From Celeribacter indicus (GTDB lineage: Bacteria; Pseudomonadota; Alphaproteobacteria; Rhodobacterales; Rhodobacteraceae), in contig NZ_CP004394.1 of NCBI RefSeq assembly GCF_000819565.1, positions 62,001 through 126,000 on the forward strand: 64,000 nucleotides of DNA, given 5' to 3'. Within the stretch, counting starts at the first letter, position 1. Every line of letters starts with the position of its first letter. Position numbers and translations under genes: made by a program. This document shows positions 1,053 to 63,233 of this stretch, one piece after another. The notes below the pieces were generated by a model. It worked only from the letters and a program-made list of their open reading frames with translations, was not told the origin of the DNA and did not search any database.

Positions 1053-1068
1053 AGCAATGGACGTGCCA
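1053..1068 (-). promoter_or_regulatory. sigma-54 promoter for the ABC binding protein
   Basis: Minus-strand TGGCACGTCCATTGCT matches the -24/-12 consensus TGGCAC-N5-TTGC exactly. The leader to the ATG at 956 would be about 85 nt. It is divergent from the site at 1108-1123, with 39 bp between them. Confidence 0.8.
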
Positions 1069-1107
1069 TATCGCGCCGCGCCGGTCCGGCGGCCTGCCGG
1101 GGCGAAA

Positions 1108-1123
1108 AGGCACGCGGATTGCA
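1108..1123 (+). promoter_or_regulatory. sigma-54 promoter for amidohydrolase 1
   Basis: AGGCACGCGGATTGCA has the essential GG and GC at the right spacing, with one mismatch in the -24 element (A for T). It lies about 63 nt upstream of the ATG at 1186. Confidence 0.65.
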
Positions 1124-1185
1124 TCTCCCGGCACGGCTCCGCGGCAGCGGCGGGGGCGTTTGGGCGAGGAGGAGGCGCGCAGGTC

Positions 1186-2241
1186 ATGGATGGGCGGCAG
1201 GACGAGACGATCTGGGGCGGGGTCCACGCGCCCGACGAGGACTTTCTGGCACGGGCGCGGCCCGAGGCGCCGCTCGAGCCGGATTTGCCGATCGTGGACA
1301 CGCATCTGCATCTGTGGCGCCTGTTTCCCGACAGGCCCTATCTGTTGCCCGAACATGCCGCGGACATCGCGGCCTCGGGCCACAATGTCACCGGCTCCGT
1401 CTATGTCGAATGCGGCGCCTTCTATCGCGCCGGGGGGCCGGAGCACCTCCGGCCCGTGGGCGAGACGGAATTCGCCGTCGGGCAGGCAGCGATGGCCGCG
1501 AGCGGTCGGCTGACCCGCGCGAAGGTGGCGCAGGCCATCGTCGGCCATGTCGATCTGACCCTCGGCGACCGGGTCGAGGAGGCGCTTGCCGCCCATCTCG
1601 AGGCGGCGAACGGGCGGTTCCGCGGGGTGCGCGACCGCGCGAAATGGGATGCCGATCCGGTGGTGAAGGGTAAGTGGAGCGCCGATGCGCCGCACCGCTT
1701 CGTCGATCCGCGCTTTGCCGAGGGGCTGCGCCGGCTGACGCGGCTGGGGCTCAGTTTCGATGCGAGCATCTATCATCCGCAACTGCCCGACGTGACGGCC
1801 ATGGCGCGGGCGCATCCGGAGGCGAATATCGTGCTGATCCATACGGCAAGCCCGGTCGGCCATGCCTCCTATGCCGGGCGGGAGCGCGAAAACCTCGCGG
1901 ACTGGACGCGCTGGATGAAGGAGCTTTCCACCTGCCCGAACGTGTCGGTGAAGCTCGGCGGCATCCTCATGAACCTGGCGAACTGGGATTTCACCACGGC
2001 GGAACGGCCGCTGACCTCGGAGGAACTGGCGGACCTGTGGCGGCCCTATCTCGAACCCTGCCTGGAGATGTTCGGGGCGGCGCGCTGCATGGTTTCCTCC
2101 AACTTCCCGGTGGACCGGGTCGGCTTTCCCTATGGCACGGTCTGGAACATGTTCAAGCGGATCGCCGCCGGCTGTTCGGAGGAGGAAAAGCGCCTGATTT
2201 TCAGTGGCACGGCCGAGCGCGTCTATCGCCTCGCCGGCTGA
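1186..2241 (+). CDS. amidohydrolase-2 family metal-dependent hydrolase (paralog 1)
   Basis: A 351-residue TIM-barrel hydrolase of the Amidohydro_2 type (the LigI / fuconolactonase / decarboxylase-like group). The metal-binding HxH lies near residue 37 in IVDTHLHLW. Further conserved segments are RAKWDADPVVKG, a VLIHTASPVGH strand and the C-terminal SNFPVDR, where an Asp ligand is expected. Members hydrolyse lactones or decarboxylate; the substrate here is unknown. It is closely related along its whole length to the protein at 49317-50366, sharing EPLEPDLPIVD, VGETEFA, WNMFK and FSGTA. The ATG at 1186 was chosen because it follows GGAGG and the sigma-54 site; a longer frame upstream would start before that promoter. 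The TRAP binding protein follows 80 nt downstream with its own promoter. Confidence 0.88.
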   Translation: MDGRQDETIWGGVHAPDEDFLARARPEAPLEPDLPIVDTHLHLWRLFPDRPYLLPEHAADIAASGHNVTGSVYVECGAFYRAGGPEHLRPVGETEFAVGQAAMAASGRLTRAKVAQAIVGHVDLTLGDRVEEALAAHLEAANGRFRGVRDRAKWDADPVVKGKWSADAPHRFVDPRFAEGLRRLTRLGLSFDASIYHPQLPDVTAMARAHPEANIVLIHTASPVGHASYAGRERENLADWTRWMKELSTCPNVSVKLGGILMNLANWDFTTAERPLTSEELADLWRPYLEPCLEMFGAARCMVSSNFPVDRVGFPYGTVWNMFKRIAAGCSEEEKRLIFSGTAERVYRLAG

Positions 2242-2251
2242 GCGCCGCCGG

Positions 2252-2267
2252 TGGCAGCGAATTTGCA
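2252..2267 (+). promoter_or_regulatory. sigma-54 promoter for the first TRAP binding protein
   Basis: TGGCAGCGAATTTGCA has an intact GG/GC core and N5 spacing with one -24 mismatch (G for C). It sits between the amidohydrolase stop (2241) and the next ATG (2322). Confidence 0.65.
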
Positions 2268-5847: not shown

Positions 5848-6857
5848 GCCCCTGCGTCCCCTGCCTTCCCGGTTGTCAGAATGATCTTGCCCCGCGCCGA
5901 TCCGGTGGACAGCGCGCGGAGCGCCTCGGTGATCCGGTCGAGCGGCAGCGTCGCGCTGATCCTCGGCGCGAGCCGGCCCTCGCTCCAGAGCGCGAAGATA
6001 TGCGCCTGCGCGTCCCGCACCCGCTCCGGCTGGCGCGCGCGGTAATCCGTCCATTGCAGGCCCGAGACCGAGATGTTTTTCACCAGCAGGTAATTGCCCG
6101 CAAAGCTCGGGATCTCGCCGGAGGCGAAGCCAACCACCACGAGCCGCCCGCACCAGGCCATCGTGCGCAGCGCCGCCGCGGACAGCGCGCCGCCCACCGG
6201 GTCGATGACCACATCCGCGCCTTGCCCCTCCGTGGCCGCCATCACCGCCGCGCGTAGCCCGTCGCGCAGGTTCTCCATGCCGGAATCCACCGTGGCATCC
6301 GCCCCGAGGGCGCGGGCGAAGTCCGCCCCCTCCGCCCCGCGCGTCGCCGCGATCACCTGTCCCGCGCCGAGCGCCTTCGCGAGCTGGACCGCGGCCATGC
6401 CGATCCCGCCCGTCGCGCCAAGCACCAGCACGCGCTCGCCCGGCGCGATCCGGGCGCGGTCCGTGAGCGCGAAATAGGCGGTCTGGTATACGAGCCCGAA
6501 GGCGGCCGCGACCGTGCAGGGCATCTCCTCCGGCATCGGAAAACAGAATTCCGCCGGGGCCACGAGCTTTTCGGCATGGCTGCCGTACTGCGGCAGGACG
6601 AGCACCTTCTGCCCTTCGCGCGGCGCCGTGACCCCGGCGCCGACCCGGCTCACCCGCCCCGCCCCGGCAAGGCCGGGCGAAAAGGGAAAGGGCGGCTTCT
6701 TCTGGTACCTGCCCTCGATATAGAGGATGTCGGGATAGTTCGCCTCGCTCGCCTCGATGTCGACGACGACCTCGCCGGGACCGGGCGCCGGATCGGGCAA
6801 CGTGCCGGTCCGCGCCTCCTCGAAGGGCGTGAAGGACTGGACGACGACCCCCTTCAT
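5844..6857 (-). CDS. zinc-independent NADPH:quinone oxidoreductase-like MDR protein
   Basis: 337 residues of the quinone reductase / enoyl reductase branch of the MDR superfamily. The GroES-like domain has GEVVVDIEASEANYPD and no zinc-binding Cys cluster. The Rossmann motif VLVLGATGGIGMAAVQLAKALGA is near residue 150, followed by ADVVIDPVGG. Members reduce quinones or 2-enoyl-CoA/ketone double bonds with NADPH. The first ten bases of this gene (ATGAAGGGGG) lie inside the 6.6-kb duplicated segment; the rest is unique. Its start therefore has the same ribosome-binding region as the unrelated racemase-like gene at 41309. The ATG overlaps the preceding HAD stop (ATGA). Confidence 0.85.
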   Translation of the reverse strand: MKGVVVQSFTPFEEARTGTLPDPAPGPGEVVVDIEASEANYPDILYIEGRYQKKPPFPFSPGLAGAGRVSRVGAGVTAPREGQKVLVLPQYGSHAEKLVAPAEFCFPMPEEMPCTVAAAFGLVYQTAYFALTDRARIAPGERVLVLGATGGIGMAAVQLAKALGAGQVIAATRGAEGADFARALGADATVDSGMENLRDGLRAAVMAATEGQGADVVIDPVGGALSAAALRTMAWCGRLVVVGFASGEIPSFAGNYLLVKNISVSGLQWTDYRARQPERVRDAQAHIFALWSEGRLAPRISATLPLDRITEALRALSTGSARGKIILTTGKAGDAGA

Positions 6858-8368
6858 TCGCTTTTCGCCCTTATTTTTTGTATTGTTGGTGCTCTTTGTG
6901 GAGCGAAAGCGGTTTGTCCTGTGATTTTGAAGATGTTGTTGGAGATTTCGCAATGGCGCGCGAGGCCGCCGCGTGTGACGCGTTCGATGGGGCCGTCGGG
7001 GTATCCGAGGCCCATGCGGCAGGTCCTGTCGATTTCTTCGGCGGCGGCGAGGCCGTCGTCGAGGAAGCGCAGGGCGTCGTTGTATTTGGGGCGCACGAGG
7101 CGGTCGACGATGCGGCCGGGGCGGTCGGCGCAGGTGACGACGTCGAAGCCTGCGCAGTCGAACACGGCGCGGGCGGCGGCGAGGGCGGCGGGGTCGGTGG
7201 CGGGCTGTCGCACCAGTTCGATGAGGTTGGAGGGCGGGTCGTCGCCGTTGCGGTAGCGGGCGAAGCCGACGGCGTTGGAGCCCTCGCGGCCCATGTCCTC
7301 GCCGGTGTGCAGGCCGAGGCATTCGGTGTCGAGCTCGACGAGCACGGCGGTCTTCGCGGGGTCGGGGGCGAAGCCGCTGCCGAGGTGGATCGTGACCTCC
7401 GCCGCGTCGCCGTCGCGGGCGCCGGCGAGGAAGGGATCGCCGGCGGGGAAGGAGCGGCTTTCGCCGGCGGAGCGCAGGCTGTAGGCGGGGGCCTCGACGG
7501 CCTTTTCGGGCAGGCGGCCGGTGAGCAGCCCGCCGCCCGACTTGGTGCCGAGCCGCCCGGCGGCGACCATCCGGCGGCAGAGCGGCGGCACCGCGGCGCG
7601 CGGGTCGAGCGTGATCGGGTAGAAGGCCTCGCCGAGCCGCAGCTGGGTGTCGAGCCCGATCAGGTCGAGCAGCGTGCAGGGCCCCATCCTGTAGCCGAGC
7701 GCGGAGCGGATCGCGAGGTCGATCTCCTCGGCGGAGGCGAGCCCGGCCTCGATCGCGCGGATCACGTCGTTGTTGAACGGCACCAGCAGCGCGTTGAGGA
7801 TGAAGCCGGGCTTGTCCTGGGTCTCCACCGGGCTCTGCCCGCAGGCCTCCGTCCAGGCCCAGGCGGCCCTGAAGGTCTCGTCCGAGGTGTTGAGGCCGCG
7901 CGACATCTCGATCAGCTTCATCACCTGCGCCGGCAGGCAGAAGTGCATCCCCACGACGCGGTCGGCCCGGCCCGAGCCGGCGGCGATCTCGGTGATCGAC
8001 AGGGTCGAGGTGTTGGAGGCGAAGATCGTGCCCTCCTTGCAGATCCGGTCCAGCTTGCCGAACAGATCCTTCTTGATGTCGAGATCCTCGAAGATCGCCT
8101 CGATCACCAGGTCGCACTCCGCCAGATCGGCCAGATCGGTCGTGTCGCTCATCCGGGCGAGCGTGGCCTCCCTGTCCCCGGCGCTCATCCGGCCCTTCTC
8201 GACCGAGGTGCCGAAGAACGTCCCGGCCGCCCTGCGCTGGCGCGCCAGCGCCTCGGCGGACATGTCGAAGCAGACGGTCTCGAACCCGCCGCGGGCCGCG
8301 ACGATGGCGATGCCCGCGCCCATGGTGCCACCCGCACCGCAGATGGCGACTTTCCTGATATCGGTCAT
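6854..8368 (-). CDS. 3-hydroxyacyl-CoA dehydrogenase (504 aa), cassette copy 1
   Basis: NAD-binding motif [21 protein letters not shown] at the N-terminus, then NTSTLSITEIA, and GMHFCLPAQVMKLIEM carrying the catalytic His. Two C-terminal 3HCDH domains follow. The usual HFFNP is HFCLP here, so this is a different subfamily from the 474-aa HAD downstream. The last 30 or so codons are unlike the rest: A/T-rich and using AGA, ATA, AGG and ACA, in a gene otherwise biased to G/C third positions. This tail (KITGQTAFAPQRAPTIQKIRAKSE region) overlaps the ribosome-binding region of the next gene, whose ATG overlaps this TGA. The start at 8368 overlaps the acyl-CoA dehydrogenase stop (ATGA). An identical copy lies at 41306-42820. 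Confidence 0.92.
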   Translation of the reverse strand: MTDIRKVAICGAGGTMGAGIAIVAARGGFETVCFDMSAEALARQRRAAGTFFGTSVEKGRMSAGDREATLARMSDTTDLADLAECDLVIEAIFEDLDIKKDLFGKLDRICKEGTIFASNTSTLSITEIAAGSGRADRVVGMHFCLPAQVMKLIEMSRGLNTSDETFRAAWAWTEACGQSPVETQDKPGFILNALLVPFNNDVIRAIEAGLASAEEIDLAIRSALGYRMGPCTLLDLIGLDTQLRLGEAFYPITLDPRAAVPPLCRRMVAAGRLGTKSGGGLLTGRLPEKAVEAPAYSLRSAGESRSFPAGDPFLAGARDGDAAEVTIHLGSGFAPDPAKTAVLVELDTECLGLHTGEDMGREGSNAVGFARYRNGDDPPSNLIELVRQPATDPAALAAARAVFDCAGFDVVTCADRPGRIVDRLVRPKYNDALRFLDDGLAAAEEIDRTCRMGLGYPDGPIERVTRGGLARHCEISNNIFKITGQTAFAPQRAPTIQKIRAKSE

Positions 8369-9531
8369 TTCCTGATAAAACTCCGTCCGATGAGCTGGCG
8401 GTGGACCTGGTTGGTCCCCTCCCAGATCTGGGTGATCTTCGCGTCGCGCATCAGCCGCTCCGCCCGGTAGTCCCGGCAATAGCCGTAGCCGCCGTGGACC
8501 TGCACGCATTCCGTGGCCATCCGCATCGCCAGGTCCGAGGCGCGCATCTTCGCCACCGAGGCCTCCATGCCGAACTCCTCCGCCCCGCCGTCGACCAGGC
8601 CGGCGACATGGTCGAGCCAGCTCTCCACCAGCACGAGCTCGCTGGCCAGGTCCGCCAGCATGAACTGGTTGCCCTGGAAGTCGAGCACCCGCCTGCCGCC
8701 CTGGACCCGGTCGCTGCCATAGGCGACCATGTCGCGGAACGCCGCCCGCGCGATGCCGAGCGCATGCGCCGCCACCGAGGGCCGCGAGCGGTTGAGCGAG
8801 CCCAGCAGGATCTTCAGCCCCTCGCCCGGCTCCCCGACCAGGTTGGCGCGCGGCACGCGGACGGTGTCGAAGGACAGCGCGCAGGTCGAGGAGCCGTGGT
8901 GGCCCATCTTCTTCTCTTTCGAGATCACGCTGAACCCCTCGGCCCCCTTCTCGAGGACCAGCACGGAGATCGCCTTCTTCGGCTCCGCGATCCCGGCCCA
9001 TTTGCCGAACAGCAGGATCCGGTCGGCCACGTCGCCATTGGTGATGAAGATCTTGCTGCCCTTCACCACGATCTCCTCGCCCTCCGGCGTGAAGGAGGTC
9101 TTCATCCCGGTCGCGTCCGAGCCGGCGGTGGGCTCGGTGATCGCCAGCGCGCCCAGCCCGCCCTCGGCGATGGCCGGCAGCAGGCGCGCCTTCTGCTCGG
9201 CGCTGCCGTATTCGATCAGCGGCTTCATCCCGTGGTAATTCGTGGCATAGATGATCCCGGTCGAGGCGCAGGCCTCCGAGAGGATCGCCACGATCTCCAG
9301 GTAGAGCCGGTAGGACATCGGCATGCCGCCATATTCCTCCGGCACGAAGACCGCGTTCAGCCCGAGCGCGTTGATCGCCTCGACATTCTCCCAGGGGAAT
9401 TCGCCGGTCGCGTCCACCCGCTCCGCATTCGGCGCGATCACCTCGTCGCTCATGCGCTGCACCTGCTCGAGGATCGCGCGCTCCTCGTCGTTCCAGCCGC
9501 GGCCTTGCAGCATCCGCTCATGCATGTTCAT
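8365..9531 (-). CDS. acyl-CoA dehydrogenase (388 aa), cassette copy 1
   Basis: An FAD-dependent acyl-CoA dehydrogenase of normal length. It has ITEPTAGSDATGMKT in the FAD/substrate-binding middle domain and a C-terminal helical domain with VQVHGGYGY. The IWEGTNQVHR segment contains the Glu expected to act as catalytic base. It would introduce a 2,3 double bond into an acyl-CoA and pass electrons to ETF; an ETF pair with the same promoter type lies at 54543-56215. If the cassette acts on cyclohexanecarboxyl-CoA, this would be the AliB step. The ATG at 9531 shares one base with the SDR stop (TGATG). An identical copy is at 42817-43983. Confidence 0.92.
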   Translation of the reverse strand: MNMHERMLQGRGWNDEERAILEQVQRMSDEVIAPNAERVDATGEFPWENVEAINALGLNAVFVPEEYGGMPMSYRLYLEIVAILSEACASTGIIYATNYHGMKPLIEYGSAEQKARLLPAIAEGGLGALAITEPTAGSDATGMKTSFTPEGEEIVVKGSKIFITNGDVADRILLFGKWAGIAEPKKAISVLVLEKGAEGFSVISKEKKMGHHGSSTCALSFDTVRVPRANLVGEPGEGLKILLGSLNRSRPSVAAHALGIARAAFRDMVAYGSDRVQGGRRVLDFQGNQFMLADLASELVLVESWLDHVAGLVDGGAEEFGMEASVAKMRASDLAMRMATECVQVHGGYGYCRDYRAERLMRDAKITQIWEGTNQVHRQLIGRSFIRK

Positions 9532-10238
9532 CAGTGGTTCATCCCCTGTGCCCCGTCGATGTAGATCGTCTCCCCGGTCAGAAAGCCGATGTCCTCCCCG
9601 AACAGCGCCGCGACCAGCCGCGCCACGTCCTCGGGCCGGCCCGGCGCCCCCGTCGGGATCCGGCTGCGCATCCAGGCGCGCACCTTCTCGCGCGCGAGGT
9701 AGTCGCGGTTCAGGTCGGTCTCGATATAGCCCGGCGCCACCGTCAGCGCCCGGATCCCGTCGCGCGCCCATTCCACCGCCATGCAGCGCGTCATCGCCGC
9801 CACCGCCGCCTTGGAGGCGCAATAGGCCAGGTTGTCGGGCACGCCCAGCTTGTCGAAGAACGAGCCGATGTTGACGATCGTGCCGCCGCCTCCCGCGCGC
9901 AGGTGCGGATAGGCCTCCCGCGCCGCCACCATCACCGCCGTCGCGTTCAGCGCCATCGTCTCCTCGAAGCTCTCCACGCTCAGCGCCGCGATCGGCCCGC
10001 CGATATGCACCCCCGCATTGTTCACCAGACCCGCCACCGGGCCCTCCGCCGCGATCGCCGCAAAGGCCGCGGCGACCGCCGCCTCCTCGGTCATGTCGCA
10101 GGCGATCTGCCGCCCCGCCGGCCCCCGGCCCGAGCGCGACAGGCAGACCACCGGATGGCCCCGCCCCTCGAGCTCCGCGGCAATCGCCGCCCCGATCCCC
10201 TTCGACGCCCCCGTGACCACGATCTGTCCCTCAGCCAT
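9531..10238 (-). CDS. short-chain dehydrogenase/reductase, cassette copy 1
   Basis: A 235-residue classical SDR: TGASKGIG cofactor motif at residues 8-15, NNAGVHIGG, active-site Ser in NIGSFFDKLG, YCASKAA (YxxxK), then a PGYIETD segment and a C-terminal GETIYIDGAQG. It is expected to oxidise a secondary alcohol (hydroxyacyl-CoA) or reduce the ketone. In an ali/bad-type pathway it would fill the BadH (2-hydroxycyclohexanecarboxyl-CoA dehydrogenase) role; that is inference. The ATG at 10238 overlaps the end of the hydratase gene by 8 nt. A longer in-frame start upstream would run far into that gene and lacks the family's N-terminus. Identical copy at 43983-44690. Confidence 0.9.
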   Translation of the reverse strand: MAEGQIVVTGASKGIGAAIAAELEGRGHPVVCLSRSGRGPAGRQIACDMTEEAAVAAAFAAIAAEGPVAGLVNNAGVHIGGPIAALSVESFEETMALNATAVMVAAREAYPHLRAGGGGTIVNIGSFFDKLGVPDNLAYCASKAAVAAMTRCMAVEWARDGIRALTVAPGYIETDLNRDYLAREKVRAWMRSRIPTGAPGRPEDVARLVAALFGEDIGFLTGETIYIDGAQGMNH

Positions 10239-11001
10239 CCCTGAACTCCGGTTTGCGTTTCTCCTCGAAGGCGGCCATGCCCTCCTCCGCATCCGCCGTG
10301 CGATAGGCCAGCGTCGAGAGATCCGCCTCGGTCTCCAGCCCCGCCTGAAGCGCCGTGTCCCCGGCCCGCTGCACCGCCCGCCGCGCCAGCTCCAGCACCG
10401 GCAGGCTGTAGCGCGTGAACCGCCCGGCGAACGCCCGCCCCGCCTCCAGCAGGTCGCCCTCCGCCACCGCGTTCACCAGCCCGATCCGCTCGGCCTCCGC
10501 CGCCGGCACGGTGCGCCCGGTCAGGATCAGCTCCAGCGCCCGCGCCTCCCCCACCAGCCGCGGCAGCCGCTGCGTGCCGCCATAGCCGGGGATCAGCCCC
10601 AGCTTGATCTCCGGCAGGCCGAACGCCGCCTGCGGCGCGGCCAGCCGGAAGGTGCAGGCCATCGCCAGCTCCGCCCCGCCGCCGAAGGCATAGCCGTTCA
10701 CCAGCGCCACGGAGGCCACCGGCAGCCGGTCCAGCTTCGCGAAGACCGCCTGCCCCAGCTCCGCCCCGTGCTTCTGCTCGGCCAGCGACCGGTGGCGCAG
10801 CTCCTTGATGTCGGCGCCGGCGCAGAACGCCTTCTCCCCCGCCCCGGTCACCAGCAGCGCCCGCACCCCCGCCATCGCCGCCACCGCGTCCAGCGCCGCG
10901 CCGATCTCGTCCAGCACCGCGAAGGACAGCGCGTTCAGCGCCTCCGGACGGTTCAGCCGCAGCACGGCAAGCCCGCCCTCCCGCTCGAGGTCTACTGCCA
11001 T
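10231..11001 (-). CDS. enoyl-CoA hydratase (256 aa), cassette copy 1
   Basis: A crotonase-fold enoyl-CoA hydratase. The oxyanion-hole segments are AFCAGADIKEL (about residue 60) and NGYAFGGGAELAMAC. Both catalytic glutamates are in place, in GGGAELA and FGLPEIKLGLIPGYGGTQRL. It hydrates a 2-enoyl-CoA; in an alicyclic pathway it would match BadK. It ends FEEKRKPEF, a common crotonase C-terminus. Four bases separate it from the ligase stop and it overlaps the SDR start, so the genes are translationally coupled. Identical copy at 44683-45453. Confidence 0.92.
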   Translation of the reverse strand: MAVDLEREGGLAVLRLNRPEALNALSFAVLDEIGAALDAVAAMAGVRALLVTGAGEKAFCAGADIKELRHRSLAEQKHGAELGQAVFAKLDRLPVASVALVNGYAFGGGAELAMACTFRLAAPQAAFGLPEIKLGLIPGYGGTQRLPRLVGEARALELILTGRTVPAAEAERIGLVNAVAEGDLLEAGRAFAGRFTRYSLPVLELARRAVQRAGDTALQAGLETEADLSTLAYRTADAEEGMAAFEEKRKPEFRDG

Positions 11002-11005
11002 CCGT

Positions 11006-12628
11006 TCACACCCCCTGTTTCCGCGCCCCGTAGCGCACCGGCTCCGGCGACAGCGCGCCCCGCGCCACCATCTGCGCCAGCTCGCGCTTGAGGATCTTCC
11101 CGCTCGCCGTCAGCGGCAGGTCCTCCACCGCCGCGAACCATTCCGGCATGTCGAATTTCGACAGCCCCTCCCGCGCCAGATGCGCCAGCATCTCCGCCGC
11201 GCCCACATCGCCGATCACCGCAAGGCACACCTTCTCCCCCAGGCGCGCGTCCGGAACCCCGAACGCCGCCGCCTTCTCCACCCGCGGATGGCTCAGCGCC
11301 AGCGCCTCGATCCGCGACGGGAAGATGTTGTGACCGCCCCGGATGATCAGGTCCTTGATCCGCCCCTCGATCCGCAGGTTGCCCTGCCCGTCGAACGAGC
11401 CCAGGTCGCCCGACAGCAGGTAGCCGTGCCGGTTCATCGTCCGCTCCGTCGCCGCCTGGTTGGCAAAATATCCCAGCATCATCGCCGCGCCGCGCCCGCC
11501 GATCTCCCCCGACTGGCCGGGCGCAAGCTCCCGGTCCGGATCCTCCGGGTCCCAGATCCGCACCTCATAGGCCGGACCGCCCCGCCCGCAGGTCCGGATC
11601 CACACCTCCGGCGGATCCCCCGGATGGGTGTATTGATGCGACGAGCATTCCGTCATCCCGTAGATGTTCTGCGGCGCGATCCCCTGGTCTACGAAGGCCT
11701 TCGCCACCACCTCGGGGATCGGCGCCCCCGCCATGTAGAAGGTCTGCACCTGCCCCAGACGCTCCAGACCCCGCCGCTTCTGCTCGGCCAGGATGTCCAT
11801 CGCATGCGTCGGCACCCCCAGAACATAGGTCGCCCCCGTCTCCGTGATCCAGTCCAGCCGGCTCATCCCCTCCGGCGGGTCGTCCATCACCAGCGTCCCG
11901 CCGCACACCAGCCATTGCCCCAGCGCCACCCAGGCGATGTGATGCGAGAACGGGCTCAGCGTCAGGATCACCGACTGATCCGACAGCGCCCAGTCCCGCG
12001 CCAGGTCCCGCGCATTCGCCAGAAGCGTGTTGCTCGAATGCATCACGCATTTCGGCCGCCCCGTCGTCCCCGAGGTGAAGGCCAGGTAGACCACGCTGTC
12101 CGGGTTGCCATGCGCCACCCGGTTCACCTGCGTGATATGGCCCGGAAACCGCTCCGGCGTATAGACCTTCCCCAGGCTCGGCACCTCCGACAGCATCGCC
12201 TCGAAGTCCCGCTCCGCCCGGTCCGCGCCCCAGCCCGGCTCCGTCACCAGCGCCCGCGCCCCCAGCTCGTTCAGAAGCTCCACGATCTCGGCGCAGGTGT
12301 AGCTGCGGTGCAGCGACGGGTTGCAGGCGATCCCCTCCCGCGCGCAGGCCAGGAAGGTGATCACCACCTCCACACGGTTCGACATCCACACCGACAGACG
12401 GTCCCCCGCCACCAGGCCCTCCTCCACAAGGTTGTCGGCCATCGCGTCGACCCGCGCCTTCAGTCCCTGCCAGTCCAGGAACACCCGCCCGTCGCGCAGC
12501 GCCATCGCCTCCGGCCGCGCCTGCGCATGCCGCGCCAGAAGCCCGTAGAAGGTCTCCCCCCGCCACAGCCCGGCCTCGTAATAGCCCCGCGCCGTGCCCG
12601 GATCGTGAAGTGTCAGGAACGGTTTCAT
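11006..12628 (-). CDS. AMP-forming acyl-CoA ligase (540 aa), cassette copy 1
   Basis: An ANL-superfamily adenylating enzyme that activates a carboxylic acid to its CoA thioester through an acyl-AMP. Visible signatures are the P-loop YLAFTSGTTGRPK (about residues 180-192), the A5-type IYGMTE, the hinge region SGDLGSFDGQGNLRIEGRIKD, and the C-terminal PLTASGKILKREL with the catalytic Lys. The substrate is unknown; cyclohexanecarboxylate (AliA-like) is a candidate because of its neighbours. It lies 16 nt downstream of the BadI/MenB-like crotonase. Identical copy at 45458-47080. Confidence 0.92.
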   Translation of the reverse strand: MKPFLTLHDPGTARGYYEAGLWRGETFYGLLARHAQARPEAMALRDGRVFLDWQGLKARVDAMADNLVEEGLVAGDRLSVWMSNRVEVVITFLACAREGIACNPSLHRSYTCAEIVELLNELGARALVTEPGWGADRAERDFEAMLSEVPSLGKVYTPERFPGHITQVNRVAHGNPDSVVYLAFTSGTTGRPKCVMHSSNTLLANARDLARDWALSDQSVILTLSPFSHHIAWVALGQWLVCGGTLVMDDPPEGMSRLDWITETGATYVLGVPTHAMDILAEQKRRGLERLGQVQTFYMAGAPIPEVVAKAFVDQGIAPQNIYGMTECSSHQYTHPGDPPEVWIRTCGRGGPAYEVRIWDPEDPDRELAPGQSGEIGGRGAAMMLGYFANQAATERTMNRHGYLLSGDLGSFDGQGNLRIEGRIKDLIIRGGHNIFPSRIEALALSHPRVEKAAAFGVPDARLGEKVCLAVIGDVGAAEMLAHLAREGLSKFDMPEWFAAVEDLPLTASGKILKRELAQMVARGALSPEPVRYGARKQGV

Positions 12629-12644
12629 CCTCTGCCTCCCCTGC

Positions 12645-13424
12645 TCACTGGCCGAATTTCGACGGGTCCGGACGCCGCCGCCCGCTGAAGCTCTCGCTGA
12701 GCTCCCCGTGCTCCGCAGAGCGCAGGTATTGCGTCAGAAGAAGGTCGTGCGTCACCCGCGACAGGCCCCCCACACCGCCGTGGCGCGCGTTGAACGCCCC
12801 CTTGATCGCCGCCAGCGCAAAGGACCCCCGGTCCGCGATCTCCAGCGCGAACTCCCGCGTCTTCTCCGCAAGCTGGTCGTCCGGAACCACCCGGTTGATC
12901 ATCCCGATCTCCAGCGCCTCCGCCGCCGTCATCTTGCGGTTGCAATACCAGATCTCCTTGGCCCGCTTCTTGCCCACGAGATCCTCCAGATACCACGTCC
13001 CGTAGCCCGCATCGAACGACCCCATCATCGGACCCACCTGCCGGAACACCGCGCTCTCCTTCGCGATCGTCACGTCGCAGACCACCTGCAACACGTTGCC
13101 GCCCCCCACCGCGAACCCGTTCACCGAGGCGATCACCGGCTTCTGGAGCTTGTCGATCGCCTCGTACATCTCCAGAACCGGCAGCGTCCCCGCATACAGC
13201 GTCGTCTGCTCCATCCCGTCCTTCTGGCCCCCGATGCAGAAGAACCGCTCCCCCGCCCCCGTCAGAACCACCACACGCGTCCGCGTCTCCCGACGGATCC
13301 CCTCGATACAGTCCCGGATCTCGTGACACATCCGCGCCGTGAACATGTTCCCGTGGTCCGGACGGTTCAGCGTGATCACCCCCACAGGGCCCTCCTCGAA
13401 ATACTCGATCTCTTCAAAACCCAT
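12645..13424 (-). CDS. MenB/BadI-like crotonase, cassette copy 1
   Basis: A 259-residue crotonase whose middle section, GSFDAGYGTWYLEDLVGKKRAKEIWY, is the pattern of the MenB (dihydroxynaphthoyl-CoA synthase) and BadI (2-ketocyclohexanecarboxyl-CoA hydrolase) branch rather than of ordinary hydratases. The catalytic Glu of hydratases is not conserved; the Asp of SFDxGYG is present. BadI cleaves the ring of 2-ketocyclohexanecarboxyl-CoA to pimeloyl-CoA. No other men genes are present, so a catabolic ring-opening or C-C-cleaving role is more likely than menaquinone synthesis. It heads the cassette, with a strong SD (AAGGAGGG) before the ATG at 13424 and a sigma-54 promoter at 13485-13500 outside the repeat. 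Identical copy at 47097-47876. Confidence 0.85.
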   Translation of the reverse strand: MGFEEIEYFEEGPVGVITLNRPDHGNMFTARMCHEIRDCIEGIRRETRTRVVVLTGAGERFFCIGGQKDGMEQTTLYAGTLPVLEMYEAIDKLQKPVIASVNGFAVGGGNVLQVVCDVTIAKESAVFRQVGPMMGSFDAGYGTWYLEDLVGKKRAKEIWYCNRKMTAAEALEIGMINRVVPDDQLAEKTREFALEIADRGSFALAAIKGAFNARHGGVGGLSRVTHDLLLTQYLRSAEHGELSESFSGRRRPDPSKFGQ

Positions 13425-13484
13425 CCCGAATTCCCTCCTTAAACGCGTGGTGCCCCGCCGCCGGGGGCTCTTGCCCGACCCTTA

Positions 13485-13500
13485 CGCAAGGGGCGTGCCA
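13485..13500 (-). promoter_or_regulatory. sigma-54 promoter for the ten-gene operon (cassette copy 1)
   Basis: Minus-strand TGGCACGCCCCTTGCG is a perfect core match. It starts 36 bp beyond the right edge of the repeat, so it is not part of the duplication. The leader to the ATG at 13424 is about 50 nt. It is divergent from the site at 13558-13573, with 57 bp between. Confidence 0.8.
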
Positions 13501-13557: not shown

Positions 13558-13573
13558 TGGCACCGGATTTGCG
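13558..13573 (+). promoter_or_regulatory. sigma-54 promoter for alcohol dehydrogenase and second TRAP receptor
   Basis: TGGCACCGGATTTGCG is a perfect core match. Its -12 GC is 42 nt upstream of the ATG at 13614. Confidence 0.8.
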
Positions 13574-17785: not shown

Positions 17786-17801
17786 CGCAAACCCCGTGCC
17801 A
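17786..17801 (-). promoter_or_regulatory. sigma-54 promoter for the coxG-coxS-coxM-like operon
   Basis: Minus-strand TGGCACGGGGTTTGCG is a perfect core match, with a leader of about 60 nt to the ATG at 17714. It is divergent from the site at 17880, with 78 bp between. A second GTGCCA at 17804-17809 has no -12 partner. Confidence 0.8.
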
Positions 17802-17879: not shown

Positions 17880-17895
17880 TGGCACGGCGATTGCG
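17880..17895 (+). promoter_or_regulatory. sigma-54 promoter for the NDP-forming acyl-CoA synthetase
   Basis: TGGCACGGCGATTGCG is a perfect core match. The predicted leader to the ATG at 18017 is about 110 nt. Confidence 0.8.
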
Positions 17896-23606: not shown

Positions 23607-23622
23607 CGCAATCGCCATGCCA
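23607..23622 (-). promoter_or_regulatory. sigma-54 promoter for acyl-CoA dehydrogenase and HIBADH
   Basis: Minus-strand TGGCATGGCGATTGCG has T for C at the last base of the -24 element. The 16-mer is identical to the divergent site at 23684-23699. The region from here to the ATG at 23364 contains no other gene. Confidence 0.75.
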
Positions 23623-23683: not shown

Positions 23684-23699
23684 TGGCATGGCGATTGCG
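23684..23699 (+). promoter_or_regulatory. sigma-54 promoter for the AbrB-family membrane protein
   Basis: TGGCATGGCGATTGCG is identical to its divergent partner at 23607-23622, with 61 bp between. The leader to the ATG at 23886 is about 175 nt and contains a strong hairpin (23770-23794). Confidence 0.75.
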
Positions 23700-24947: not shown

Positions 24948-24963
24948 CGGCACGGGGTTTGCG
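24948..24963 (+). promoter_or_regulatory. sigma-54 promoter for the MmgE/PrpD gene
   Basis: CGGCACGGGGTTTGCG has an intact GG/GC core with one mismatch (C for T at the first base). The leader to the ATG at 25001 is about 27 nt. Confidence 0.7.
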
Positions 24964-34975: not shown

Positions 34976-34991
34976 TGGCACAAATATTGCG
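34976..34991 (+). promoter_or_regulatory. sigma-54 promoter for the CoxL-like gene
   Basis: TGGCACAAATATTGCG is a perfect core match with an A/T-rich spacer that stands out in a very G/C-rich region. The leader to the ATG at 35088 is about 86 nt. Confidence 0.8.
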
Positions 34992-38351: not shown

Positions 38352-38367
38352 CGCAATCCCTGTGCCA
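38352..38367 (-). promoter_or_regulatory. sigma-54 promoter for the crotonase at 37506
   Basis: Minus-strand TGGCACAGGGATTGCG is a perfect core match, with a leader of about 29 nt to the ATG at 38312. Confidence 0.8.
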
Positions 38368-38455: not shown

Positions 38456-38473
38456 ACGAAGACGATTCCCGGC

Positions 38474-38502: not shown

Positions 38503-38525
38503 GACAGGAGGGAGGACCTTCATCC

Positions 38526-44690: not shown

Positions 44691-45453
44691 CCCTGAACTC
44701 CGGTTTGCGTTTCTCCTCGAAGGCGGCCATGCCCTCCTCCGCATCCGCCGTGCGATAGGCCAGCGTCGAGAGATCCGCCTCGGTCTCCAGCCCCGCCTGA
44801 AGCGCCGTGTCCCCGGCCCGCTGCACCGCCCGCCGCGCCAGCTCCAGCACCGGCAGGCTGTAGCGCGTGAACCGCCCGGCGAACGCCCGCCCCGCCTCCA
44901 GCAGGTCGCCCTCCGCCACCGCGTTCACCAGCCCGATCCGCTCGGCCTCCGCCGCCGGCACGGTGCGCCCGGTCAGGATCAGCTCCAGCGCCCGCGCCTC
45001 CCCCACCAGCCGCGGCAGCCGCTGCGTGCCGCCATAGCCGGGGATCAGCCCCAGCTTGATCTCCGGCAGGCCGAACGCCGCCTGCGGCGCGGCCAGCCGG
45101 AAGGTGCAGGCCATCGCCAGCTCCGCCCCGCCGCCGAAGGCATAGCCGTTCACCAGCGCCACGGAGGCCACCGGCAGCCGGTCCAGCTTCGCGAAGACCG
45201 CCTGCCCCAGCTCCGCCCCGTGCTTCTGCTCGGCCAGCGACCGGTGGCGCAGCTCCTTGATGTCGGCGCCGGCGCAGAACGCCTTCTCCCCCGCCCCGGT
45301 CACCAGCAGCGCCCGCACCCCCGCCATCGCCGCCACCGCGTCCAGCGCCGCGCCGATCTCGTCCAGCACCGCGAAGGACAGCGCGTTCAGCGCCTCCGGA
45401 CGGTTCAGCCGCAGCACGGCAAGCCCGCCCTCCCGCTCGAGGTCTACTGCCAT
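44683..45453 (-). CDS. enoyl-CoA hydratase (256 aa), cassette copy 2
   Basis: Identical to the protein at 10231-11001. Both catalytic glutamates (GGGAELA and FGLPEIKLG) are present, consistent with a true 2-enoyl-CoA hydratase. It lies 4 nt after the ligase. Confidence 0.92.
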   Translation of the reverse strand: MAVDLEREGGLAVLRLNRPEALNALSFAVLDEIGAALDAVAAMAGVRALLVTGAGEKAFCAGADIKELRHRSLAEQKHGAELGQAVFAKLDRLPVASVALVNGYAFGGGAELAMACTFRLAAPQAAFGLPEIKLGLIPGYGGTQRLPRLVGEARALELILTGRTVPAAEAERIGLVNAVAEGDLLEAGRAFAGRFTRYSLPVLELARRAVQRAGDTALQAGLETEADLSTLAYRTADAEEGMAAFEEKRKPEFRDG

Positions 45454-45457
45454 CCGT

Positions 45458-47080
45458 TCACACCCCCTGTTTCCGCGCCCCGTAGCGCACCGGCTCCGGC
45501 GACAGCGCGCCCCGCGCCACCATCTGCGCCAGCTCGCGCTTGAGGATCTTCCCGCTCGCCGTCAGCGGCAGGTCCTCCACCGCCGCGAACCATTCCGGCA
45601 TGTCGAATTTCGACAGCCCCTCCCGCGCCAGATGCGCCAGCATCTCCGCCGCGCCCACATCGCCGATCACCGCAAGGCACACCTTCTCCCCCAGGCGCGC
45701 GTCCGGAACCCCGAACGCCGCCGCCTTCTCCACCCGCGGATGGCTCAGCGCCAGCGCCTCGATCCGCGACGGGAAGATGTTGTGACCGCCCCGGATGATC
45801 AGGTCCTTGATCCGCCCCTCGATCCGCAGGTTGCCCTGCCCGTCGAACGAGCCCAGGTCGCCCGACAGCAGGTAGCCGTGCCGGTTCATCGTCCGCTCCG
45901 TCGCCGCCTGGTTGGCAAAATATCCCAGCATCATCGCCGCGCCGCGCCCGCCGATCTCCCCCGACTGGCCGGGCGCAAGCTCCCGGTCCGGATCCTCCGG
46001 GTCCCAGATCCGCACCTCATAGGCCGGACCGCCCCGCCCGCAGGTCCGGATCCACACCTCCGGCGGATCCCCCGGATGGGTGTATTGATGCGACGAGCAT
46101 TCCGTCATCCCGTAGATGTTCTGCGGCGCGATCCCCTGGTCTACGAAGGCCTTCGCCACCACCTCGGGGATCGGCGCCCCCGCCATGTAGAAGGTCTGCA
46201 CCTGCCCCAGACGCTCCAGACCCCGCCGCTTCTGCTCGGCCAGGATGTCCATCGCATGCGTCGGCACCCCCAGAACATAGGTCGCCCCCGTCTCCGTGAT
46301 CCAGTCCAGCCGGCTCATCCCCTCCGGCGGGTCGTCCATCACCAGCGTCCCGCCGCACACCAGCCATTGCCCCAGCGCCACCCAGGCGATGTGATGCGAG
46401 AACGGGCTCAGCGTCAGGATCACCGACTGATCCGACAGCGCCCAGTCCCGCGCCAGGTCCCGCGCATTCGCCAGAAGCGTGTTGCTCGAATGCATCACGC
46501 ATTTCGGCCGCCCCGTCGTCCCCGAGGTGAAGGCCAGGTAGACCACGCTGTCCGGGTTGCCATGCGCCACCCGGTTCACCTGCGTGATATGGCCCGGAAA
46601 CCGCTCCGGCGTATAGACCTTCCCCAGGCTCGGCACCTCCGACAGCATCGCCTCGAAGTCCCGCTCCGCCCGGTCCGCGCCCCAGCCCGGCTCCGTCACC
46701 AGCGCCCGCGCCCCCAGCTCGTTCAGAAGCTCCACGATCTCGGCGCAGGTGTAGCTGCGGTGCAGCGACGGGTTGCAGGCGATCCCCTCCCGCGCGCAGG
46801 CCAGGAAGGTGATCACCACCTCCACACGGTTCGACATCCACACCGACAGACGGTCCCCCGCCACCAGGCCCTCCTCCACAAGGTTGTCGGCCATCGCGTC
46901 GACCCGCGCCTTCAGTCCCTGCCAGTCCAGGAACACCCGCCCGTCGCGCAGCGCCATCGCCTCCGGCCGCGCCTGCGCATGCCGCGCCAGAAGCCCGTAG
47001 AAGGTCTCCCCCCGCCACAGCCCGGCCTCGTAATAGCCCCGCGCCGTGCCCGGATCGTGAAGTGTCAGGAACGGTTTCAT
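45458..47080 (-). CDS. AMP-forming acyl-CoA ligase (540 aa), cassette copy 2
   Basis: Identical to the protein at 11006-12628, with the P-loop SGTTGRPK and the C-terminal catalytic Lys in ASGKILKREL. In this operon a CoA transferase is encoded upstream, so two modes of CoA activation are co-expressed. Confidence 0.92.
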   Translation of the reverse strand: MKPFLTLHDPGTARGYYEAGLWRGETFYGLLARHAQARPEAMALRDGRVFLDWQGLKARVDAMADNLVEEGLVAGDRLSVWMSNRVEVVITFLACAREGIACNPSLHRSYTCAEIVELLNELGARALVTEPGWGADRAERDFEAMLSEVPSLGKVYTPERFPGHITQVNRVAHGNPDSVVYLAFTSGTTGRPKCVMHSSNTLLANARDLARDWALSDQSVILTLSPFSHHIAWVALGQWLVCGGTLVMDDPPEGMSRLDWITETGATYVLGVPTHAMDILAEQKRRGLERLGQVQTFYMAGAPIPEVVAKAFVDQGIAPQNIYGMTECSSHQYTHPGDPPEVWIRTCGRGGPAYEVRIWDPEDPDRELAPGQSGEIGGRGAAMMLGYFANQAATERTMNRHGYLLSGDLGSFDGQGNLRIEGRIKDLIIRGGHNIFPSRIEALALSHPRVEKAAAFGVPDARLGEKVCLAVIGDVGAAEMLAHLAREGLSKFDMPEWFAAVEDLPLTASGKILKRELAQMVARGALSPEPVRYGARKQGV

Positions 47081-47096
47081 CCTCTGCCTCCCCTGC

Positions 47097-47876
47097 TCAC
47101 TGGCCGAATTTCGACGGGTCCGGACGCCGCCGCCCGCTGAAGCTCTCGCTGAGCTCCCCGTGCTCCGCAGAGCGCAGGTATTGCGTCAGAAGAAGGTCGT
47201 GCGTCACCCGCGACAGGCCCCCCACACCGCCGTGGCGCGCGTTGAACGCCCCCTTGATCGCCGCCAGCGCAAAGGACCCCCGGTCCGCGATCTCCAGCGC
47301 GAACTCCCGCGTCTTCTCCGCAAGCTGGTCGTCCGGAACCACCCGGTTGATCATCCCGATCTCCAGCGCCTCCGCCGCCGTCATCTTGCGGTTGCAATAC
47401 CAGATCTCCTTGGCCCGCTTCTTGCCCACGAGATCCTCCAGATACCACGTCCCGTAGCCCGCATCGAACGACCCCATCATCGGACCCACCTGCCGGAACA
47501 CCGCGCTCTCCTTCGCGATCGTCACGTCGCAGACCACCTGCAACACGTTGCCGCCCCCCACCGCGAACCCGTTCACCGAGGCGATCACCGGCTTCTGGAG
47601 CTTGTCGATCGCCTCGTACATCTCCAGAACCGGCAGCGTCCCCGCATACAGCGTCGTCTGCTCCATCCCGTCCTTCTGGCCCCCGATGCAGAAGAACCGC
47701 TCCCCCGCCCCCGTCAGAACCACCACACGCGTCCGCGTCTCCCGACGGATCCCCTCGATACAGTCCCGGATCTCGTGACACATCCGCGCCGTGAACATGT
47801 TCCCGTGGTCCGGACGGTTCAGCGTGATCACCCCCACAGGGCCCTCCTCGAAATACTCGATCTCTTCAAAACCCAT
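47097..47876 (-). CDS. MenB/BadI-like crotonase, cassette copy 2
   Basis: Identical to the protein at 12645-13424 (GSFDAGYGTWYLEDLVGKKRAKEIWY signature). In this context an in-frame ATG at 47906 overlaps the upstream CoA-transferase stop and would add ten residues (MITRLRREFG). The internal ATG at 47876 is preferred because the strong SD AAGGAGGG lies before it and because copy 1 can only use this start. Confidence 0.85.
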   Translation of the reverse strand: MGFEEIEYFEEGPVGVITLNRPDHGNMFTARMCHEIRDCIEGIRRETRTRVVVLTGAGERFFCIGGQKDGMEQTTLYAGTLPVLEMYEAIDKLQKPVIASVNGFAVGGGNVLQVVCDVTIAKESAVFRQVGPMMGSFDAGYGTWYLEDLVGKKRAKEIWYCNRKMTAAEALEIGMINRVVPDDQLAEKTREFALEIADRGSFALAAIKGAFNARHGGVGGLSRVTHDLLLTQYLRSAEHGELSESFSGRRRPDPSKFGQ

Positions 47877-47906
47877 CCCGAATTCCCTCCTTAAACGCGT
47901 GATCAT

Positions 47907-49180: not shown

Positions 49181-49196
49181 CGCAATCCCCGTGCCA
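49181..49196 (-). promoter_or_regulatory. sigma-54 promoter for the eight-gene operon (cassette copy 2)
   Basis: Minus-strand TGGCACGGGGATTGCG is a perfect core match. The leader to the ATG at 49145 is about 25 nt. It is divergent from 49257, with 60 bp between. Confidence 0.8.
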
Positions 49197-49256: not shown

Positions 49257-49272
49257 TGGTACGGGATTTGCG
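49257..49272 (+). promoter_or_regulatory. sigma-54 promoter for amidohydrolase 2
   Basis: TGGTACGGGATTTGCG has an intact GG/GC core with one mismatch (T for C at the fourth base). The leader to the ATG at 49317 is about 34 nt. Confidence 0.7.
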
Positions 49273-51841: not shown

Positions 51842-51857
51842 AGCAAACCCCATGCCA
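51842..51857 (-). promoter_or_regulatory. sigma-54 promoter for the acyl-CoA dehydrogenase at 50465
   Basis: Minus-strand TGGCATGGGGTTTGCT has T for C at the last base of the -24 element. Only 30 bp separate it from the divergent site at 51888, the tightest pair in the window. Confidence 0.75.
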
Positions 51858-51887: not shown

Positions 51888-51903
51888 TGGCACGGCGTTT
51901 GCT
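51888..51903 (+). promoter_or_regulatory. sigma-54 promoter for the thiolase-MaoC-crotonase operon
   Basis: TGGCACGGCGTTTGCT is a perfect core match. The leader to the ATG at 51990 is about 76 nt. The 318-nt gap between the two genes holds only this promoter pair. Confidence 0.8.
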
Positions 51904-54457: not shown

Positions 54458-54473
54458 TGGCACGCCGGTTGCA
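54458..54473 (+). promoter_or_regulatory. sigma-54 promoter for etfBA
   Basis: TGGCACGCCGGTTGCA is a perfect core match 17 nt after the crotonase stop, with a leader of about 59 nt to the ATG at 54543. It ties this electron carrier to the regulon. Confidence 0.8.
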
Positions 54474-61833: not shown

Positions 61834-61835
61834 CC

Positions 61836-62681
61836 TCACAGCGCCCTGAGGTTGCGGACCTTCGAGGGCACCATGTTGTGCTGGCGCCCGCCGTCGACCA
61901 GAAGATCGGCGCCGGAGATGAAGCTGCCCGCGGGCGAGGCGAGATAGGCCACCGCTTCGGCGATGTCCCCGATCTGGCCGAGGCGCCCGAGCGAGGTGCG
62001 CTCGATCTCCGCGGAGAAGCGTTCGGGATCGTCGGCCATGCGGTTGATCCCGCCCGTGCCGCCGATCGGACCGGGGGCGACGTTGTTCACATGGATGTTG
62101 TAGCGGCCCCATTCGACCGCCAGCGTATGCGCCATGGAAATCAGCCCCGCCTTTGCCGCCGCCGCGTTGACCGACCCCGGCCAGCTCTGCCAGGCGAAGG
62201 GGGAGACGATATTGACGATCCGCCCGCCCTGCTCGGCCTTGCTGAGCGGCTCGAAGGCCGCCTTGCAACAGGCCCAGGCGCCGTTGAGATTGATGTCGAT
62301 CAACACTTTCCAGCCGTTTTCCGTCAATTCCTCGGCCGGCGTGTGGAACAGCCCCGCGGCACAGTTCACCAGGATGTCAAGCGAGCCCAGGCGCGCGACG
62401 GTCTGCGCCACCGCCGCCTCCACCGCCGCAAAGTCGCGGATGTCCGTGGGCACCGCCAGCGTCTCGATCCCCTCGGAGTCGAGCGCGGTGCGGGCGGAGT
62501 TCAGCACCTCCTCCTTGCGGCTCACGATCGCGACCTTCGCGCCGAGGAGCCCGAGCGTGCGCGCGATGCCGAAGCCGATGCCGGTGCCCCCTCCGGTGAC
62601 AAAGGCCGTGCGGCCCCTGAGCATGTCCCTTGCGAATGTCTCGAACGGGCTGCGCGGGTTTTCGGGCGCTGTATCGGCCAT
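61836..62681 (-). CDS. SDR resembling 2,4-dienoyl-CoA reductase (281 aa)
   Basis: SDR fold with VTGGGTGIGFGIARTLG (cofactor motif, about residues 30-46) and NCAAGLFHTPAEEL. The usual YxxxK is missing: the segment reads VNAAAAKAGLISMAHTLAVEW, with Ala at the Tyr position. This, and the following APGPIGGTGGINRM, are features of the peroxisomal and mitochondrial-type 2,4-dienoyl-CoA reductases. It may therefore reduce conjugated double bonds of unsaturated acyl-CoA intermediates. It lies 28 nt downstream of the OB-fold gene in the operon from 63218. Confidence 0.83.
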   Translation of the reverse strand: MADTAPENPRSPFETFARDMLRGRTAFVTGGGTGIGFGIARTLGLLGAKVAIVSRKEEVLNSARTALDSEGIETLAVPTDIRDFAAVEAAVAQTVARLGSLDILVNCAAGLFHTPAEELTENGWKVLIDINLNGAWACCKAAFEPLSKAEQGGRIVNIVSPFAWQSWPGSVNAAAAKAGLISMAHTLAVEWGRYNIHVNNVAPGPIGGTGGINRMADDPERFSAEIERTSLGRLGQIGDIAEAVAYLASPAGSFISGADLLVDGGRQHNMVPSKVRNLRAL

Positions 62682-62709
62682 TCCTGTCTCCTTCTCCGGC
62701 GGGTTGGTC

Positions 62710-63102
62710 TCAGCTGCGTTTGAACTGCGGCAGGGTGTCGCCCTGGGCGTTCGTCTCGAAGGTGACGCGCACCTCGTCGCCGATCCGCACCCCGAGCGCG
62801 TCCTCGCCCACGAGGTTGGTGATCATGCGCGGACCTTCCTCGACCCGCACGGCGGCGACCACATAGGGCACCTTGTCGCGGAACTCCGGCAGCGGCGCGC
62901 GGCGCACGACGGTGAAGCTTTCCACCCGGCCGCGCCCCGTGCTCTCGATCCACTCGGGCGTCTCCTCCCAGCAGCTCGCACAATGGAAGCGCGGCGGAAA
63001 CTGCACGGTGCCGCAGGCGCCGCATTTCTGGAACATCAGGCGGCCGTCGCGCGCGCCTTCCCAATAGGCGACGGAATCGCCGTTCTCCAAGCTGCCGGTC
63101 AT
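62710..63102 (-). CDS. DUF35/OB-fold zinc-ribbon acyl-CoA-associated protein
   Basis: 130 residues with an N-terminal zinc ribbon CGACGTVQFPPRFHCASCW (two CxxC pairs, about residues 29-47) followed by an OB-fold (GRGRVESFTVVRRAPLPEF ... ALGVRIGDEVRVTFE). This family pairs with SCP2-type thiolase-like proteins in lipid-transfer aldolases and hydratases. The Cys-less thiolase-like protein at 51990 is the only such candidate in the window. First gene of the four-gene unit; the ATG at 63102 follows GAGAGGAC. Confidence 0.88.
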   Translation of the reverse strand: MTGSLENGDSVAYWEGARDGRLMFQKCGACGTVQFPPRFHCASCWEETPEWIESTGRGRVESFTVVRRAPLPEFRDKVPYVVAAVRVEEGPRMITNLVGEDALGVRIGDEVRVTFETNAQGDTLPQFKRS

Positions 63103-63217
63103 GTCGGTCCTCTCTCGTTGTCGCGGGATGCCGGCCCGGCCGCCTGCGCAGCCGGACGGAGGGGCGCGCAGGACACGCGGGATGCAGCCCTGCACCCTGT
63201 CCTGATGCGGATCCCGT

Positions 63218-63233
63218 CGCAAATCCCGTGCCA
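63218..63233 (-). promoter_or_regulatory. sigma-54 promoter for the OB-fold-SDR-thioesterase operon
   Basis: Minus-strand TGGCACGGGATTTGCG is a perfect core match between the rpoN stop (63258) and the OB-fold ATG (63102), with a leader of about 105 nt. The gap between the two genes holds nothing else I can identify. Confidence 0.8.

Follow-up and report, generated by a model that had tools for sequence, protein, structure and literature searches.

The window analysed here is the 64,000-nucleotide stretch C2:62001-126000 of the Celeribacter indicus genome (label G000; 4.97 Mb in 6 contigs, rated 100% complete), C2 being contig NZ_CP004394.1. With 155,183 bases, C2 is a repABC plasmid (repA, repB and repC at C2:1-3507; Pfam matches to ParA-type, RepB and RepC); the chromosome, C1, has 4.53 Mb. 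The window carries a set of catabolic genes preceded by sites that resemble sigma-54 promoters, together with a gene for a predicted sigma-54 activator and part of rpoN, the gene for sigma-54. Gene identities come from homology to annotated genes of the Salipiger abyssi plasmid pPABY4 (NZ_CP015095.1) and from family searches; several gene starts were estimated from homology. Coordinates without a prefix are window positions.

The genes encode uptake systems of the tripartite ATP-independent periplasmic (TRAP) and ATP-binding cassette (ABC) types, two types of coenzyme A (CoA) ligase, acyl-CoA dehydrogenases, hydratases and electron transfer flavoprotein (ETF), as well as a molybdenum dehydrogenase and glucose-methanol-choline (GMC) oxidoreductases; a thiolase-like gene is accompanied by a ChsH2-like one. 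Several of the sites before them form divergent pairs, an arrangement kept in pPABY4 and in C. litoreus (G400). At the left end, TGGCACGTCCATTGC at 1054..1068 (-) precedes the gene for an ABC-type substrate-binding protein that ends at 992, and the weaker AGGCACGCGGATTGC at 1108..1122 (+) an amidohydrolase gene (~1255-2241). The site at 13486..13500 (-) stands before copy A of a core operon (crotonase, AMP-ligase, hydratase, short-chain dehydrogenase/reductase (SDR) and acyl-CoA dehydrogenase), and that at 13558..13572 (+) before genes for a zinc alcohol dehydrogenase and a TRAP substrate-binding protein. Genes for CoxG-like, 2Fe-2S and FAD-binding subunits follow the site at 17787..17801 (-), and an acetate-CoA-ligase-family gene (pPABY4 orthologue, 90%) follows the one at 17880..17894 (+). 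Two sites with TGGCAT, at 23608..23622 (-) and 23684..23698 (+), precede an acyl-CoA dehydrogenase gene and a gene with a pPABY4 orthologue of the annotated AbrB family, respectively; the weaker CGGCACGGGGTTTGC at 24948..24962 (+) lies before an MmgE/PrpD family gene (25001).

In the middle of the window, TRAP transporter genes follow the site at 32321..32335 (-), GMC oxidoreductase and metallo-hydrolase genes that at 32409..32423 (+), a molybdopterin-binding dehydrogenase gene that at 34976..34990 (+), and an enoyl-CoA hydratase gene (37506-38315) that at 38353..38367 (-). Towards the right end, the site at 49182..49196 (-) precedes a CoA-transferase gene and copy B of the core operon, and TGGTACGGGATTTGC at 49257..49271 (+) an amidohydrolase gene. 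A further TGGCAT site, at 51843..51857 (-), lies before an acyl-CoA dehydrogenase gene, the site at 51888..51902 (+) before thiolase-like, MaoC-like and hydratase genes, and that at 54458..54472 (+) before genes for ETF beta/alpha and a PcaF-type thiolase, the latter scoring above its family cut-off. The last site, at 63219..63233 (-), comes directly after rpoN and precedes a gene for a ChsH2-like zinc-ribbon/OB-fold protein (~62713-63105).

Thirteen exact TGGCACN5TTGC cores and three TGGCATN5TTGC variants make up 16 strict sites (TGGCAYN5TTGC) in the window. A first-pass annotation of this DNA had listed 20 sites, 15 of them perfect; the sites are real, although the count was slightly high, with 13 exact cores and 19 plausible promoters. 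Allowing up to one mismatch to TGGCACN5TTGC yields 22 matches in the window; 100 dinucleotide shuffles gave 3.1 on average and 9 at most. Nineteen of the 22 were kept, namely the 16 strict sites and those at 49257 (TGGTAC), 1108 (AGGCAC) and 24948 (CGGCAC); the match at 2252 (TGGCAG) was discarded, as was the pair at 12959/47411 (TGGCCC), which lies within the duplicated crotonase gene. All 16 strict window sites precede genes in the correct orientation, as had been claimed for the set, at roughly 30-190 nt from those starts that can be placed. Strict sites number 22 on C2, 21 on C1 and one on C4. The 4.81 Mb outside C2 thus hold 22 in total, and the density on C2 is 31-fold above that of the rest of the genome (0.71 expected, 22 observed; Poisson 2e-25). 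A Markov simulation of C2 gave a mean of 0.48 strict sites and a maximum of 3 in 60 runs. The first-pass annotation had proposed comparisons with shuffled DNA and with the rest of the genome, and both bear out its site set.

On C2 as a whole, 21 of the 22 strict sites precede genes, the exception at C2:150454 lying within one. A homology-coverage test flagged four strict C2 sites as covered by genes (50733, 100353, 111182 and 150454); we take the flag on the first three as an artefact of over-long called open reading frames (ORFs) and 150454 alone as truly intragenic. This site and the weak single sites at 1108 and 24948 may be chance matches. Positions outside the search pattern are informative as well: among the 16 strict window sites a purine follows TGGCAC in 15, A or T precedes TTGC in 14 (p 5e-6) and C never follows TTGC. 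These non-searched positions also match the sigma-54 consensus, which speaks against a chance origin of the set. A T at the second position after TTGC, in 5 of the 16, is not significant (p 0.09). We make no claim that the base after TTGC marks a separate promoter class, as it is G in 15/23 relaxed C2 sites but also in 10/21 chromosomal ones. The sites have the fixed -24/-12 spacing, the location upstream of genes and the excess over background expected of the promoters of a sigma-54 regulon.

Seventeen of the 21 chromosomal strict sites lie within predicted ORFs, a few of which are short and doubtful. The other four (G000:C1:2001574, 2004771, 2090604 and 2130069) precede genes, which encode a CoA ligase, a TctC receptor, an AraC regulator and a shikimate-dehydrogenase-like protein, and all four show the purine and A/T features of the consensus. 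Near two of the four we observed paralogues (56-62%) of plasmid genes, among them those for the acetate-CoA ligase, the GMC oxidoreductase and the molybdopterin enzyme. The first-pass annotation had described one co-located regulon inside the window. The dense sites do share a replicon with the activator and rpoN, but the set goes beyond the window edges, from C2:17131 to C2:131571, and may include the four on the chromosome.

The C-terminal half of rpoN occupies 63258..64000 (-), where the first-pass annotation had placed a sigma-54 gene; the gene is cut by the window end and its coding sequence is at ~C2:125258-126697. The three RpoN domains, for activator interaction, core binding and DNA binding, all score above cut-off (PF00309 43.3, PF04963 166.2 and PF04552 209.7 bits), and the RpoN box is present in the translation. 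A check for other rpoN copies had been suggested; a whole-genome Pfam search found this single sigma-54 gene and no other, and in this respect the first-pass annotation had understated its finding. As the genome has no other rpoN, transcription from the C2 promoters is expected to require the sigma factor that the plasmid itself encodes. A perfect sigma-54 site lies upstream of rpoN at C2:126849-126863, ~150 nt ahead of the gene start that corresponds by alignment to the one annotated in pPABY4, and this makes a feedback loop likely, for which a basal promoter would be needed at start-up.

Activator 1 (38526..40184, +; 552 aa) was recognized in the first-pass annotation, and its domains are confirmed: PAS (PF00989, 26.5 bits, cut-off 22.6), AAA+ (PF00158) with a GSFTGA loop, and a Fis-type helix-turn-helix (HTH_8). 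It is not alone, contrary to the single activator first proposed. Activator 2, at C2:127036-128676, lies outside the window and is divergent from rpoN; its HTH_8 match is weak (26.1 bits, cut-off 22). Both combine the AAA+ domain, the GAFTGA-type loop for sigma-54 contact and the HTH of a bacterial enhancer-binding protein, and they are the only two loop-bearers among the genome's 16 PF00158 matches, which include pieces of single proteins and other AAA+ families. The five chromosomal NtrC-like proteins have GAFPGA (one) or a shortened or lost loop (four), and no chromosomal activator with an intact loop is found among the PF00158 matches. According to the excerpted text of PMC3162934, sigma-54 and loop-bearing activators co-occur near-perfectly and Thr/Ser-to-Pro is a recurrent loop deviation.

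Divergent pairing of rpoN with such an activator recurs in other genomes. A scan of named genomes gave 20 RpoN relatives. In six loci (L078, L079, L081, L082, L083 and L094) a GSFTGA activator divergently adjoins rpoN, which is followed within ~110 nt by a sigma-54 site in every case, and genome G228, with three rpoN in all, likewise has an adjacent and divergent pair. In Chelativorans (L080) the activator is ~19 kb from rpoN, and in L084 a GAFSGA activator is not beside it. In L097 (Mangrovicoccus ximenensis) we observed a GSFTGA activator beside a match to the first 52 RpoN residues only, perhaps a broken pair. The other 11 relatives, mostly of 36-48% identity, have no such activator in the stretch examined. 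Of nine genomes with the linked pair, five have no rpoN besides that of the pair: G000, G395 (a Pseudooceanicola metagenome-assembled genome, MAG), G396 (a UBA3069 MAG), G398 (Celeribacter PS-C1) and G400. There are two copies in G397 (Chelativorans) and G402 (Roseovarius pacificus) and three in G399 (S. abyssi SY10-16); G401 (L084; three rpoN) and G403 (L097; four rpoN) were left out of this count. In the four other sole-rpoN genomes, the module activator is the only loop-bearer among 3-5 PF00158 matches each (E <= 1e-20), and the congener G229 has zero rpoN and zero loops among 4 PF00158 matches.

Trees of RpoN and of the adjacent activators agree on three groups: {pPABY4, C. litoreus}, {PS-C1, R. 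pacificus} and {Chelativorans, G000, Pseudooceanicola, UBA3069}. Activator 1 falls in the first group and activator 2 in the third. The activator 1 locus (37506-40184, hydratase and activator) aligns to pPABY4 on both flanks at 84-87%, while the 1.8-kb middle containing rpoN is absent, an arrangement suggestive of the loss of a second rpoN. From the two group placements and this missing middle, C2 looks like two modules that share a single rpoN.

We hypothesize that the plasmid is a self-contained sigma-54 system devoted mainly to catabolism, comprising rpoN, two PAS-AAA+-Fis activators and about 21 promoters, in a cell otherwise devoid of sigma-54. It is the lack of a second rpoN in the genome that makes the system self-contained, beyond a local cluster. 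We assign this reading a probability of roughly 0.8, in view of the gene content, the sole copies, the density and position of the sites and the recurrence of the pair, all visible in the DNA; transcription, an inducer, feedback and dependence on RpoN are inferences from it. A substrate or CoA intermediate may be sensed through the N-terminal/PAS part of the activators. The activator oligomer would then hydrolyse ATP and remodel the RpoN-polymerase waiting at the -24/-12 sites, and the about 21 promoters would serve uptake, CoA activation, beta-oxidation-type steps and electron transfer. The site before rpoN could then boost the supply of sigma factor.

Several points weigh against this reading. 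We saw no shared enhancer element upstream of the sites, and transcription from them is a prediction from sequence. The four chromosomal sites fit the consensus, and the regulon may extend beyond the plasmid. MAGs, which may miss genes, account for two of the five genomes with a sole rpoN. G000, L078, L079 and L080 have a strict site upstream of rpoN, and none was found there in pPABY4, L081, L083 and L094 (at most 2 mismatches, GG/GC kept); autoregulation of rpoN is therefore not general. Finally, the number of strict sites varies widely across the pieces read of the relatives' contigs (G395 3, G398 5, G396 6, G402 7, G397 13, G400 14, pPABY4 19); the whole genomes of those relatives hold 26-49 strict matches, many presumably chance.

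Chance matching in GC-rich DNA is itself an explanation to be weighed. The pattern does arise by chance, with 53 strict matches in the 3.1 Mb of the congener G229, which lacks rpoN; a reversed-pattern control (7 in the G000 genome) underestimates the background. For the site set as a whole, such an origin is excluded by the shuffle, rest-of-genome and Markov comparisons, and the location before genes, the fit at unsearched positions and the divergent pairs kept in pPABY4 and G400 also speak against it, which leaves it extremely improbable. A different possibility is that a catabolic cluster with its own activators uses host sigma-54 and that the plasmid rpoN is a passenger. The TOL plasmid pWW0 (XylR/Pu/Ps) uses the sigma-54 of its host in the excerpted account of PMC3253710: its catabolic operons are likewise switched on by a plasmid-encoded sigma-54 activator, and sigma-54 is among the host factors on which it relies. 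Among 13 plasmid records with an activator homologue (E <= 1e-120), 11 lack rpoN, and relatives that have additional rpoN genes (G397, G399, G402 and G228) might have no need of the module's copy. In G000, unlike TOL, sigma-54 does not come from the host chromosome, the only rpoN found being on C2; nor was another found in four others of the pair-bearing genomes, and rpoN and activator remain linked, with matching trees. We consider the passenger explanation unlikely.

The plasmid rpoN might also serve a broad cellular regulon (nitrogen, motility and others) of which the catabolic sites are one part. Such a role has been suggested for the sole rpoN of Paracoccus aminophilus, on pAMI4 (PMC3925955, in the part available), and the four gene-preceding chromosomal sites, two of them near paralogues of plasmid genes, would fit it. 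The balance of sites argues otherwise, with 21/22 on C2 preceding genes versus 17/21 on the chromosome within called ORFs, and so does the lack of an intact-loop chromosomal activator among the matches; a broad regulon appears quite improbable.

Regulated genes moved into a host without the required sigma factor remain silent. The C. indicus plasmid seems to avoid this silence in new hosts, since sigma factor, activators and promoters all arrive with it. In a survey of 395 sampled genomes of the family, 135 have rpoN above cut-off and 260 do not, which suggests repeated loss; the activator (E <= 1e-120, at most 3 candidates scored per genome) occurs in 3/395, each with rpoN within ~2 kb of one copy. 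We lean, by a narrow measure, towards a mobile bring-your-own-sigma cassette, in which rpoN and activator would travel between genera with catabolic plasmids, re-install sigma-54 in a family about two thirds rpoN-less as a private, self-amplifying channel, and perhaps capture chromosomal paralogue operons. Chelativorans alearense (L080, on G397 contig C9), of a genus outside the family, has RpoN, activator, core operon and 13 strict sites in 100 kb, an occurrence that suggests transfer between distant hosts. A plasmid location is established for G000 and pPABY4 only; a search of the remaining genomes gave no repC on their rpoN contigs, most of which are fragments. The two activator plasmids with rpoN are pPABY4 (adjoining) and one Burkholderia multivorans record (~100 kb away). 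In Aminobacter and Cupriavidus plasmids, the activator is next to an operon (crotonase, ligase, hydratase, SDR, acyl-CoA dehydrogenase, 3-hydroxyacyl-CoA dehydrogenase and CaiB) with a sigma-54-like site between; their hosts are expected to carry a chromosomal rpoN. On the simplest reading, operon and activator would be the older unit, with rpoN added, or kept, where hosts are without it. The system offers a natural test of how a cell without an alternative transcription system gains a whole one. It may also provide an orthogonal expression channel of natural origin for engineering within this bacterial family.

Plasmid-borne rpoN is common: 72,556 plasmid records gave 202 matches to this RpoN at E <= 1e-40, and about two thirds are rhizobial, judged by genus name. 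The nearest among the matches listed is that of pPABY4, which resembles C2 in that its rpoN and an activator of 84% identity are divergent, its strict sites number 19 and many of its operons are orthologous; unlike C2, it has one activator, and another S. abyssi strain, SY10-16, has three rpoN genes. The following comparisons draw on excerpts of the cited papers. As in C. indicus, the only rpoN of P. aminophilus is on an extrachromosomal replicon, pAMI4, but the excerpted description reports no dedicated activator or promoter set (PMC3925955), and the P. aminophilus rpoN is not among the matches listed (40 of 202). In Cereibacter sphaeroides each studied RpoN paralogue has its own activator (RpoN1-NifA, RpoN2-FleQ, RpoN3-AprX), with four paralogues per cell serving nif, flagella and xrpA (PMC11999139), whereas here a single plasmid RpoN would serve catabolism. 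Bradyrhizobium DOA9 (a second RpoN; PMC9977809) and Ralstonia solanacearum (PMC4371752) also have rpoN on a large plasmid, but with a chromosomal rpoN in the same cell, which G000 lacks and its relatives G397, G399 and G402 have. Two candidate precedents were set aside, one concerning rpoH (PMC4843759) and the other a plasmid sigma-70 (PMC9426580). A plasmid rpoN, even as sole copy (P. aminophilus), and RpoN-activator pairing (C. sphaeroides) are thus already known. In the literature searched, which excludes subscription papers and preprints, we found no report of the full package in its recurrent form, with the only sigma-54, the only loop-bearing activators and a dense array of catabolic promoters on one plasmid; the sole plasmid rpoN of P. 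aminophilus came closest.

As for the pathway, the core operon is similar to those for alicyclic-acid degradation, yet every score falls below the family cut-off. Cyclohexanecarboxylate (bad/ali) degradation was rejected on these grounds (badI 206.9/467.6, ligase 225.4/792.3, dehydrogenase 273.1/650 and SDR 137.2/350 bits), in a comparison that covered 5 of the 10 proteins first intended. With low confidence, the substrate is probably a cyclic or branched acid. The crotonase, ligase, hydratase and dehydrogenase of the core operon have relatives on most or all of seven other linked contigs. Copies A (6842..13449, -) and B (41294..47901, -) of this operon are 99.97% identical and form a 6.6-kb direct duplication, whose near-identity may reflect a recent origin, gene conversion or a misassembly; copy A stands behind the promoter at 13486, and copy B behind the CoA-transferase gene with the promoter at 49182.

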